From positions 62,001-126,000 of the forward strand of contig CANFRC010000006.1 in NCBI GenBank assembly GCA_947449315.1: 64,000 nucleotides of DNA, given 5' to 3'. The first letter of the stretch is position 1. Each line of letters starts with the position of its first letter. The DNA is from Bacteroidota bacterium. Its GTDB lineage: Bacteria; Bacteroidota; Bacteroidia; 2-12-FULL-35-15. Positions 49,326 to 57,324 of the stretch are shown one piece after another. Made by a program: the position numbers and the translations under genes. A model generated the notes under the pieces. The model saw only the letters and a program-made list of their open reading frames with translations, made no database searches and had not been told where the DNA came from.

Positions 49326-50147
49326 ATGAAAAAACGAATACTTTTTTTTATTTCTGCAACTTTACTAGTGGCTTCTTCTATTTCCATGAGTGCTCAGACA
49401 CCGGGAACTTTGACATTTACTTTTACTCAGGTAGCTCATTCTCCTTGCTACACAGGTACAAAAAACGTTTTAGCCGTTTGGATCCAGACGAGTGCTGGTG
49501 TGTTTGTAAAGACAAAACTTCGTAATGCAGGTACCGGAACAAAAGACCATTTGCCTACTTGGGCCGTAAATTCAGGTGGAACGTCAGCAAATTGTATGGC
49601 AGCAGCTTGTAATACAACAGATGCAACATCCGGAGCTACCCTTTCATCATTTGGAGCTAAAACAATTATTTGGGATGGCAAAAATGTTGTAGGAACGGTA
49701 AACGGAACTACAGTAGCGGATGGTGTTTATAAAGTGACTATTCAGTCAACATGGAACCATGGGTCTGGTTCAACTGTTACCACTTCTTTTACCTTTACAA
49801 AAGGTCCAACTGCTGATCACCAGACTCCTGCTAATACGGCTGATTTTACCGGTATTACTTTGGATTGGATTCCTGGAATTGCTGGTGTAGCGGATATTGC
49901 TTCAGTGGGTCCAGAAATAAATGTTTATCCTAATCCCACAATCGGATTATTCAATGTCGACTATTCAAAAGCGACAAGCGTAAAAGTAGTAGATATTTTA
50001 GGTGATGTTATTTATGACGAAAAAGTCGATCAAAATAATGCTGGAACTATGGCTATCGATTTAGCAAATTATGCCAATGGGATCTATTTTATTTATGTTT
50101 TTGATGGTGACAATTCATCTAAACGTAAATTAATTTTAACTAAATAA
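49326..50147 (+). CDS. DUF2271-like secreted protein, predicted FMN carrier with T9SS tail
   Basis: A secreted protein of 273 residues. Signal peptide (MKKRILFFISATLLVASSIS), then a DUF2271-like beta domain: VLAVWIQTSAGVFVKTK, then DATSGATLSSFGAKTIIWDG and GVYKVTIQSTWNHGSG, the order of that family. DATSGAT (99-105) fits the flavinylation motif Dxx[S/T]GA[T/S], so Thr105 is the expected attachment point for FMN. A T9SS type A sorting domain (VYPNPTIGLFNVDYS to the end) follows. The convergent gene beyond the shared terminator encodes ApbE, the enzyme that attaches FMN to such motifs. An exported flavoprotein for electron transfer at the surface is inferred. Confidence 0.82.
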   Translation: MKKRILFFISATLLVASSISMSAQTPGTLTFTFTQVAHSPCYTGTKNVLAVWIQTSAGVFVKTKLRNAGTGTKDHLPTWAVNSGGTSANCMAAACNTTDATSGATLSSFGAKTIIWDGKNVVGTVNGTTVADGVYKVTIQSTWNHGSGSTVTTSFTFTKGPTADHQTPANTADFTGITLDWIPGIAGVADIASVGPEINVYPNPTIGLFNVDYSKATSVKVVDILGDVIYDEKVDQNNAGTMAIDLANYANGIYFIYVFDGDNSSKRKLILTK

Positions 50148-50162
50148 AAATTTTTACCTTAT

Positions 50163-50199
50163 AAAAAAAGGCATTCTTCCATGAAGAATGCCTTTTTTT
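50163..50199. terminator. Bidirectional terminator between the DUF2271-like gene and apbE
   Basis: GGCATTCTTC (50170-50179) and GAAGAATGCC (50183-50192) pair perfectly around a 3-base loop, with A7 before and T7 after. It serves both convergent genes; the apbE stop codon begins inside its T-run. Confidence 0.9.
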
Positions 50200-51202
50200 A
50201 TTGATCTTCTTCAATAACAATATCTTTTACACCTGGCGTTTCATAGATTTGATAATTACCCTTATCGTCTGAATAGATCAAATATGCTTGGAGTTCAGGG
50301 TGGTTGTATAAAAATTCTTTTGCCTTTTCAAGTCCCAACACTAAAATTCCGGTAGCATTTGCATCGGAAGAAATGCATTGCTTTGCAAAAACAGTGGCAC
50401 TTAACAGGTTGTTTTTTGTCGGATAACCTGTCTTAGGATCAATGTGGTGTCCGTATTTTATACCATTTTCAATAAAAAATCTTCTGTAGTTTCCAGAGGT
50501 AGAGGTAGCTAGGTTTTCAAGTTTTACAATTGCTTTTATAGGGTTTTCCGAATTTTTATTATCAATGGGTTTCTCTATTCCTATTTGCCAATTTTCTCCA
50601 TTCGGTTTTTTGCCTTTTGCATAAACTTCGCCACCAATTTCTACGATGAATGATGTGATTTTTTTTGAGATCAAAAAGTCGGATACAACATCTACTGAAT
50701 AACCTTGTGCAAATGCATTGAAATCCAAAGCGACTCTCGGATCTTTTTTTACGATCTTTTTACCTTTTAATTCAATCAGATCAAAGCCAACAAATTGTAG
50801 AATACTATCTATTTTTGCTTGTTCAATTTTTTGCTTTTTTCCTGGACCGAATCCCCACGCATTTACTAAAGGGTAAACAGTAGGGTCAAATGCTCCATTC
50901 GTATTTTTCCAAACTTCTTTTGCTTTATTAAAACATGTAATAAAATAGTTGTCGACCACTACGTTCTTTTCATTTGCATTGATTCTTGATATAATAGATG
51001 TTGGAAGGTAGGTGGAAACAGATTTATCAAAATCCGCTAATATCTTTTCTATCTGAGGTTGCAGGTTTCTGTTTTTTTTATCAAAATAAGAAATATGATA
51101 GGTGGTGCCTTGGGCATACCCATCAAATTTTAAAAGATCTTGTTGAGAATATGTTGTTGAAACAATAAAAAAAAGGAAACTATAAATCACAAATTTTTTC
51201 AT
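50198..51202 (-). CDS. apbE: FAD:protein FMN transferase
   Basis: Transfers FMN from FAD to a Thr or Ser of exported proteins. The 334-residue protein has a signal peptide (MKKFVIYSFLFFIVSTTYSQ), so it works in the periplasm; there is no lipobox. Motifs in order: YAQGTTYHISYF, NGAFDPTVYPLVNAWGFG, LDFNAFAQGYSVDVV, VEIGGEVYAKG, HHIDPKTGYP (FAD site), and SSDANATGILVLG, whose Asp and Thr bind the metal. It faces the DUF2271-like gene, the most likely local target. Confidence 0.94.
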   Translation of the reverse strand: MKKFVIYSFLFFIVSTTYSQQDLLKFDGYAQGTTYHISYFDKKNRNLQPQIEKILADFDKSVSTYLPTSIISRINANEKNVVVDNYFITCFNKAKEVWKNTNGAFDPTVYPLVNAWGFGPGKKQKIEQAKIDSILQFVGFDLIELKGKKIVKKDPRVALDFNAFAQGYSVDVVSDFLISKKITSFIVEIGGEVYAKGKKPNGENWQIGIEKPIDNKNSENPIKAIVKLENLATSTSGNYRRFFIENGIKYGHHIDPKTGYPTKNNLLSATVFAKQCISSDANATGILVLGLEKAKEFLYNHPELQAYLIYSDDKGNYQIYETPGVKDIVIEEDQ

Positions 51203-54609: not shown

Positions 54610-57324
54610 ATGAACATTATTTATTTAGCTCCCGCTTTAGGGATTTTAGGATTGATCGTAATGGCGATAAAATCTGCTTGGGTTAATAAGCAAGATGCCG
54701 GTGATAAAAACATGCAAGAACTTGCCGGTTATATTGCAGATGGCGCAATGGCGTTTTTAAAAGCAGAATGGAAAGTGCTCAGCATTTTCGTTGTTTTTGC
54801 TGCAGCATTGTTAGCCTATTCAGGAACTATTCATGAAATAAATGGAAAAGAAATTCACGGAAGTTGGATTATAGCTATCGCGTTTATTATTGGTGCTGTA
54901 TTTTCTGCTACTGCAGGATACATAGGTATGAAAGTAGCTACCAAAGCAAATGTTCGTACTACGCAGGCTGCTAAAACAAGTTTAAAACAAGCCTTGAAAG
55001 TTTCTTTCACAGGTGGAACTGTAATGGGTTTAGGAGTTGCTGGTTTAGCTGTTTTAGGCTTGGGTGGATTGTTTATTGTTTTCTTAAAAATGTTTCATGT
55101 TGTTAATGTTGATAGCAACGAAATGAAAACAGCTATTGAAGTATTGACAGGGTTCTCTTTGGGAGCTGAGTCCATTGCTTTATTTGCTCGTGTTGGAGGT
55201 GGTATTTATACAAAAGCTGCCGATGTTGGAGCTGATCTTGTTGGAAAAGTAGAAGCAGGTATCCCAGAAGATGACGTTCGTAACCCGGCTACCATTGCTG
55301 ATAACGTTGGTGATAACGTAGGTGATGTTGCAGGTATGGGTGCCGATTTATTTGGTTCTTATGTAGCAACGATTTTGGCTACAATGGTATTAGGACAAGA
55401 GATCATTGTTACAGATAACTTTGGTGGTATGTCACCAATCTTATTACCAATGGTAATCTGTGGTTTAGGTATCGTTTTCTCAATTATAGGAACTTGGTTT
55501 GTTACCATTAAAGATGATAAATCAAATGTTCAAAATGCATTGAATTTGGGTAACTGGTCATCAATGATCCTAACAGTAATTGCGTCTTATTTTATTGTCA
55601 TGTATATGTTGCCTGATGGAGTTATTACGCTTCGTGAAATTCCATTTACTAAAATGGGCGTTTTCTTAGCGATAGTTGTTGGTACTGTTGTAGGGGCAAT
55701 CATGAGTATTGTTACCGAGTATTACACCGCAATGGGTAAAGGTCCTGTAAACTCTATTATTCAACAATCTTCTACAGGGCATGCTACTAATATTATTGGT
55801 GGTTTATCAGTAGGGATGAAATCAACAGTTATTCCAATATTAACATTGGCTGGTGGTATTATGGCTTCGTATCATTTTGCAGGTTTGTATGGTGTGGCTA
55901 TCGCAGCAGCAGGAATGATGGCTACAACGGCTATGCAATTAGCAATAGATGCTTTCGGTCCGATTGCAGATAACGCTGGTGGTATTGCTGAAATGAGTCA
56001 ATTGCCTCCTGAAGTTCGTGAGCGTACAGATAATTTAGATGCAGTAGGTAACACAACAGCAGCAACAGGAAAAGGATTTGCAATCGCTTCAGCAGCCTTA
56101 ACATCATTGGCATTGTTTGCTGCCTTTGTTGGTATTGCAGGCATTTCTCATATTGATATTTACAAAGCAAATGTATTAGCAGGTTTATTTGTTGGTGCGA
56201 TGATTCCTTTTATATTCTCTGCATTGTGTATTCAAGCGGTTGGTAAAGCTGCGATGGACATGGTACAAGAAGTGCGTAGACAGTTCCGCGAAATTCCAGG
56301 TATCATGGAATACAAAGCGAAGCCAGAATATGAAAAATGTGTGGCTATTTCTACAAAGGCTTCTATCCGTGAAATGATGATGCCAGGAGCTATTGCATTG
56401 ATCACTCCTGTGATTGTTGGTTTTACATTCGGTCCGGAAGTATTAGGTGGTTTATTAGCAGGTGTTACAGTATCCGGAGTGTTGATGGGTATTTTCCAAT
56501 CAAATGCAGGTGGTGCTTGGGACAATGCAAAAAAATCTTTTGAAAAAGGGGTAATGATCAATGGTGAAATGTTCTATAAAAAATCAGAACCACACAAAGC
56601 TTCTGTTACTGGAGATACTGTTGGTGATCCATTTAAAGATACTTCTGGTCCTTCTATGAATATCCTTATTAAATTAATGTCTATCGTTTCTTTGGTTATT
56701 GCTCCTTATATCGCAGTAAATACTGCTGAAGCAGGAATGGGTTGCGATAAAGATAAGATGCAGAGTGAATGTTCTATGGGGGCAGAAATGCACGGTGGAT
56801 GTTCTGAAATGCACGAAGGTTGCACAGGAATGATGCATGAAGGTTGTATGGAAAGCAAATGCGATATGAGCAAATGTGCTACTATGACCAAAGAAGACTG
56901 TGCTAAAATGTGTGATGAAAAAGGATGTTCTGCAGATGAAAAAGCATATTGCATGAGCATGTATGGTACCGATGGAAAATTTATAGGTGCTAAATGCGAT
57001 ATGATGAAATGTATGAACATGACCAAAGAAGCATGTGCTAAATATTGTGATTCAGTTAAATGTTCGCCTGAAGAAAAAGCCATGTGTATTAAACATGCCG
57101 GAATGAGTTCAGCTGCTGGTTGTAAAGATCATGCTGGCATGACGGAAGGAAAAGCGTGTTGTAAAGATAAAGCGCCTGTTGAAAAAGCGTGTTGTAAAGA
57201 CAAAGCAGCCTCAGGTAATTGCTCAGGAGAGGTTAAAAGTTGTATGAAAGCATGCACTCATGGCTGCAAAACAAAAGAAGAGTGTGCTAAAAAATGTGGC
57301 GATGCTTGTGCTAAAATGCACTAA
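54610..57324 (+). CDS. hppA: Membrane-bound ion-pumping pyrophosphatase with a unique Cys/Met/His-rich C-terminal tail
   Basis: An inner-membrane pump of 904 residues that couples PPi hydrolysis to ion export. Residues 1-703 are a normal 16-helix enzyme: [16 protein letters not shown] (208-222), [18 protein letters not shown] (231-248) and [10 protein letters not shown] (480-489). Ala484 and Gly487 mark the potassium-dependent group. The Glu of the sodium-pump motif DLFES is Gly249 here, while Glu187 sits in GAES. After the last helix (about 683-703) comes a tail of about 200 residues with 29 Cys plus many Met, His, Lys and Asp. It holds two 31-residue repeats (751-781 and 796-826, 20 identical positions, six Cys each at matching spacing), and ACCKDKA twice. 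In canonical enzymes the C-terminus is outside the cytoplasm, so the tail should be periplasmic. A metal-binding role is inferred. Confidence 0.95.

Follow-up and report, generated by a model that had tools for sequence, protein, structure and literature searches.

Genes and features of the locus

Within the window, by which we mean the whole analysed stretch of 64,000 nucleotides, the gene for a DUF2271 protein with a sorting domain of the type IX secretion system (T9SS) and the gene for ApbE converge on a common hairpin. The features of the locus are given below.

49326..50147, + strand: DUF2271 protein with a T9SS type-A C-terminal sorting domain, predicted to be flavinylated; 273 aa, ATG at 49326, stop codon ending at 50147
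49326..49397, + strand: Sec signal peptide, residues 1-24, MKKRILFFISATLLVASSISMSAQ; read from the sequence, with the cleavage site placed by eye; ends ...SMSAQ
49446..49820, + strand: DUF2271 domain, residues 41-165; Pfam PF10029, 30.0 bits
49620..49640, + strand: DATSGAT, residues 99-105, predicted FMN attachment motif; predicted flavinylated residue Thr105
49923..50135, + strand: T9SS type-A sorting domain, residues 200-270; Por_Secre_tail, 52.1 bits; TIGR04183; structural match
50161..50201, no strand: bidirectional terminator-like hairpin common to both convergent genes; -23.1 kcal/mol
50198..51202, - strand: ApbE, FAD:protein FMN transferase with signal peptide; 334 aa, sole ApbE of the genome
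47299..48009, + strand: TPR protein; a related TPR gene adjoins the DUF2271 gene in several relatives, a tentative link

The first-pass annotation had placed both genes correctly (49326-50147, +, 273 aa; 51202-50198, -, 334 aa) and had proposed that they share a terminator. This terminator is real: the hairpin lies between the two stop codons and has a 19-bp stem with A and T runs on either side, and a comparable hairpin of differing sequence was found between the genes in 13 of 19 other loci examined. Neighbouring genes of the window encode the TPR protein, an MFS transporter, a periplasmic-binding-protein-like protein, a patatin and a pyrophosphatase, none of which suggests a redox function. 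The membrane pyrophosphatase (54610-57324, + strand; PF03030 over residues 12-697) is extended at its C-terminus by ~200 residues. The greater part of this extension has a very high content of Cys, His and Met with many CxxxC motifs and resembles a metal-binding tail. A PHROGs search returned no matches.

The score of the DUF2271 domain is weak yet above the Pfam cut-off of 27.3 bits, in agreement with the DUF2271-like domain originally noted, and the domain was matched in 19 of 20 relatives scanned (E <= 0.01). The sorting domain likewise exceeds its Pfam cut-off, is assigned to the T9SS type A class by NCBIfam (TIGR04183) and is present in all 20 relatives scanned. In the AlphaFold model of the protein (mean pLDDT 83.5), the signal peptide forms a helix at residues 2-16 and the C-terminus folds into a sandwich that matches the translocon-bound cargo domains of NucA (8glk_D, TM 0.79 by target length), RemA (8gl6_D) and RemZ (8gl8_D), so that both sequence and structure bear out the T9SS tail. 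A fold search with the DUF2271 part of the model returned generic sandwich folds only, with no informative match. The protein thus has both the signal peptide and the C-terminal sorting domain that are features of T9SS type-A cargo, and the 89 T9SS tail matches in the genome suggest that the organism also encodes the T9SS core genes.

We also observed that a DUF2271 domain with TGAT opens very long proteins of 846 to 1677 aa or more (L018 6001-9192, L023 5998-8538 and L057 3419-8449). These contain repeated Ig/PKD-like stretches, two of them could be read to a T9SS tail, and they have the appearance of adhesin-like stalks that bear a flavin domain.

The ApbE of the window is a full-length match to its family (Pfam, 276 bits) with a signal peptide, and almost the entire chain can be aligned to FAD:protein FMN transferases of known structure (E about 1e-51; best 6nxi, 9e-52). 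Its FAD and metal motifs had been described as intact. In the alignment to 6nxi this holds for the D and T of the metal motif (SDANAT), but the customary AKG has Q in place of K (FAQGYSVD) and TSGD has become TSGN.

Conservation of the predicted flavinylation motif

The flavinylation motif of DUF2271 proteins has been defined as [S/T]GA[S/T], and the purified DUF2271 protein of Amantichitinum ursilacus was flavinylated by its ApbE, a modification that was lost on a Thr-to-Ala exchange (Meheust et al. 2021, PMC8238504). Since such a word is expected ~0.13 times by chance in a domain of this composition, its presence is by itself suggestive and the evidence lies in its conservation. Among 34 relatives bearing a DUF2271 domain, 33 have [S/T]GAT at the motif position (31 TGAT and 2 SGAT) and the remaining one has TGST, and [S/T]GAT persists even where identity has fallen to about 45%. 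The conservation of SGAT among homologues, on which the original proposal had been made to depend, is therefore present, and we rejected a chance occurrence of the motif. In addition, the motif aligned in a profile-profile comparison with the TGA[S/T] that canonical DUF2271 proteins of Bacteroidota have.

The longer form that had been proposed, Dxx[S/T]GA[T/S], was too strict. Its core stands and agrees with the published motif, but the leading Asp is found in only 20 of the 34 relatives, the others having G, S, T or A, and we discarded the Dxx part as a general requirement. The single relative with TGST (L055 7576-8481, genome G020) adjoins an ApbE gene and constitutes a natural test of the acceptance range of this enzyme.

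Association with ApbE

We compared 26 related loci, 25 of which were testable for linkage to ApbE; in the remaining case the contig was too short. As the first-pass annotation had suggested should be scored, apbE is a convergent downstream neighbour in 21 of these 25 loci, directly adjacent in 20 and with a TPR gene in between in one. No ApbE was found in the DNA surrounding the loci L018, L020, L023 and L026.

We also searched 36 genomes of the same order, each of which is assigned to the same single genus. Because T9SS tails dominated the matches to the full alignment (A1), we counted only matches that extended into the DUF2271 part among those candidates that were scored, a part of the total; on this count the DUF2271-T9SS protein is present in 12 genomes, ApbE in 13 and both in 11. 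This co-occurrence gives a Fisher p of 1.4e-6 over 36 genomes that are related and hence not independent. The two genes lie together in 10 of the 11 genomes with both. Genome G024 has both genes twice, at or near contig ends, an arrangement that is consistent with two broken DUF2271-apbE pairs.

The sole genome of the order with the DUF2271-T9SS protein but without ApbE, G022, is 78% complete, and no ApbE was found in it despite several DUF2271 copies. It has two DUF2271-T9SS genes in tandem (L007/L060), while a long protein (L018) contains a third copy and a fragment (L061) represents the fourth. Conversely, in the two genomes with ApbE but without the DUF2271-T9SS protein (G030 and G034), apbE lies beside a gene for DUF3570 (L050 and L051), the other class of non-FMN_bind ApbE substrate that has been shown experimentally (Meheust et al. 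2021, PMC8238504). Since both exceptions carry DUF3570, ApbE never occurs in these genomes of the order without a protein from one of the two known non-FMN_bind classes of substrate.

The genome of the window has a single ApbE, and searches of it for FMN_bind, NQR2/RnfD and PepSY_TM gave no matches. The DUF2271-T9SS protein is thus the only ApbE substrate of a known type that was found in this genome. NQR2/RnfD was absent from all 36 genomes of the order, and PepSY_TM occurs in only four of these, each lacking both ApbE and the DUF2271-T9SS protein. The earlier statement that no PepSY gene is present therefore extends from the window to the whole genome (0 PepSY_TM matches), and we rejected a PepSY partner encoded elsewhere, as well as an ApbE that serves NQR/RNF or FMN_bind proteins.

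Relation to other DUF2271 proteins and to T9SS cargo

To place the protein among its family, we collected DUF2271 proteins over the cut-off from a sample of 395 Bacteroidota genomes. Other members of the family are either about 160-195 aa or about 500 aa long, and no T9SS tail was present in any of those read. The short proteins are mostly encoded beside a PepSY_TM-flavodoxin-reductase protein, often with ApbE too, while the long ones are ApbE-DUF2271 fusions adjoining a PepSY_TM_like_2 gene. A core profile of the DUF2271-T9SS protein found no tailed relative in the 394 other genomes of this sample; besides the 12 genomes of the order, the tailed type was found in Flavobacterium, Crocinitomicaceae and Flavobacteriales genomes. 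The tailed proteins therefore look like a distinct branch that is rare or patchily spread.

The PepSY-associated flavinylated DUF2271 proteins (PMC8238504) share with the window protein the Pfam domain, the in-register [S/T]GA[S/T], a neighbouring ApbE and the predicted covalent FMN. In the phylum sample, however, their chain of about 160 aa ends after the domain and they mostly lie beside the PepSY_TM-flavodoxin reductase, whereas the window type has a T9SS tail, a convergent apbE and no PepSY_TM in its genome. The fusions of ~500 aa with a neighbouring PepSY_TM_like_2 hold the ApbE-DUF2271 link in one chain and, unlike the window type, lack the tail; in the four that were read (L103, L104, L107 and L110) TSAT, SSAT or AGAT replaces [S/T]GA[S/T], a hint that these fusions may go without flavinylation at this position. 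The DUF3570-ApbE pairs likewise involve a non-FMN_bind substrate, and DUF3570 stands in for the DUF2271-T9SS protein in G030 and G034, but it is an unrelated, longer protein with a thioredoxin-like neighbour. With T9SS type-A cargo such as NucA, RemA and RgpB, the window protein shares the C-terminal sorting domain by Pfam, TIGR04183 and fold, although none of this cargo is described with a covalent flavin in the literature we found.

A DUF5777, YceI and cytochrome c cluster in relatives

In 9 of the 26 related loci, the DUF2271 gene lies within a few kb of genes for DUF5777, a YceI-type protein and mostly also a monoheme cytochrome c with a lipoprotein-type N-terminus. The arrangements are as follows.

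L013, L017, L021, L027: DUF5777-YceI-cytochrome-TPR-DUF2271 facing apbE
L019: DUF5777-YceI-cytochrome-Reeler-domain protein-DUF2271 facing apbE (Reeler replaces TPR)
L006: DUF2271 facing apbE-DUF5777-YceI-cytochrome
L018: cytochrome-YceI-DUF5777-DUF2271
L025: DUF5777-cytochrome-YceI-DUF2271 facing apbE
L026: DUF2271-OB protein-DUF5777-cytochrome-YceI

For a non-redundant set, about 0.09 chance linkages were expected versus 7 seen, or 4 after related arrangements were merged (P about 2e-6 in a rough Poisson estimate). YceI-type proteins bind lipids or quinones, and the predicted model of DUF5777 is a porin-like barrel with NanC as its best match (pLDDT 75). The literature searched contained no mention of DUF5777, and the cluster is without a described function.

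All 36 genomes of the order encode DUF5777, whether or not they have DUF2271, and its gene usually lies beside YceI and cytochrome c where the surroundings were read. The cluster thus has a life of its own, and the DUF2271-T9SS protein looks like an optional addition to it. In the genome of the window the cluster is on another contig (G000:C8, about 32.2-34.2 kb; L077 6227-8160), and here the tie between the two would run through the relatives only. The arrangement in relatives recalls Mtr-type porin-cytochrome conduits in that a cytochrome and a redox protein of the cell surface are encoded together with a barrel of the outer membrane, but this is an analogy only: the cytochrome is monoheme, no multiheme chain was seen and the cluster is not a member of that family.

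Proposed role and alternative explanations

We consider it likely that the DUF2271-T9SS protein is a flavoprotein that is flavinylated in the periplasm, exported by the T9SS and able to pass electrons between the cell and the outside. From what is known of these families, the protein would reach the periplasm via Sec, where ApbE would transfer FMN from FAD to Thr105 of the S-G-A-T motif. The folded and already modified flavoprotein would then cross the outer membrane through the T9SS by means of its C-terminal domain, to be anchored at the surface or released, and would there carry electrons from the cell to an external acceptor or to the cell from an external donor. It probably exchanges electrons with the DUF5777/YceI/cytochrome module, so that the monoheme cytochrome c lipoprotein, the YceI-type protein and the DUF5777 outer-membrane barrel, clustered in relatives and encoded elsewhere in the genome of the window, would be its likely partners; we put forward this exchange and its direction with less assurance than the export steps. 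A tentative and on balance doubtful extension is a surface redox conduit, in which the T9SS-delivered flavoprotein, the barrel, YceI and the cytochrome lipoprotein would together pass electrons across the outer membrane as a flavin-based counterpart of porin-cytochrome systems.

The first-pass annotation had arrived at a compact extracellular flavin electron carrier. The conserved motif, the T9SS tail, the neighbouring and co-occurring ApbE and the absence of PepSY all speak for such a carrier, while the Dxx part of the motif does not. The word compact may describe only the gene arrangement in this one genome, because relatives place the protein beside the cytochrome c, YceI and barrel cluster.

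Flavinylation and export could also serve something other than electron transfer by the cell. On a protein that is secreted or part of a matrix, the flavin might act locally, for instance in reactions with peroxide or oxygen, in light-driven reactions or in stabilising the structure, and would then have no envelope partner. Consistent with this, neither in the window nor in most of the relatives from its order does a redox gene adjoin the DUF2271-T9SS gene, and the domain heads long, repeat-rich, adhesin-like T9SS proteins of 846 aa (L023) and 1063 aa (L018). We nevertheless think this unlikely, given that several lineages have genes for cytochrome c, YceI and an outer-membrane barrel clustered with it and that the characterised ApbE-flavinylated systems act in electron transfer (PMC8238504).

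Less probable still is a flavoprotein that stays in the periplasm or is exported only transiently, with a genuine T9SS tail but with its redox work done before export or by a retained pool. ApbE is periplasmic, and canonical Bacteroidota DUF2271 proteins adjoin inner-membrane PepSY reductases, as this explanation would have it; yet the tail is kept in 20 of 20 relatives scanned, and PepSY_TM is absent from the genome of the window and from every genome of the order with a DUF2271-T9SS protein. It is very improbable that the protein is not flavinylated at all, in which case TGAT would be a loop that serves the structure of the fold, and ApbE would be retained next door for another reason. The relative that has TGST with ApbE next door, and the frequent loss of the Asp of the general motif, would fit such a loop. 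Against it stand the co-occurrence of ApbE with the protein, the lack of any other known substrate class in the genome among those searched and the in vitro proof of flavinylation for the same domain family (PMC8238504).

Implications

The DUF2271 domain, its flavinylation, ApbE and T9SS cargo as such are all known. What appears to be new is their combination in a predicted ApbE substrate that is addressed to the T9SS, and the surface is a location that the literature searched had not described for such a redox protein. The ApbE-made flavoproteins of Gram-negative bacteria that we found described are periplasmic or membrane-bound, and no relevant paper came up when T9SS was searched together with flavinylation or ApbE, although the supplementary tables of PMC8238504 may list some of these loci as DUF2271 clusters.

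If our favoured reading of a surface flavoprotein is correct, a T9SS-exported ApbE substrate would place a covalently bound flavin outside the cell, and the T9SS would carry a cargo whose cofactor is built in before export. With a single ApbE and a single substrate of a known type, one deletion in a culturable relative could test the role of one flavinylated protein. In addition, the finding points to an uncharacterised cytochrome, YceI and barrel cluster that is common in these bacteria.
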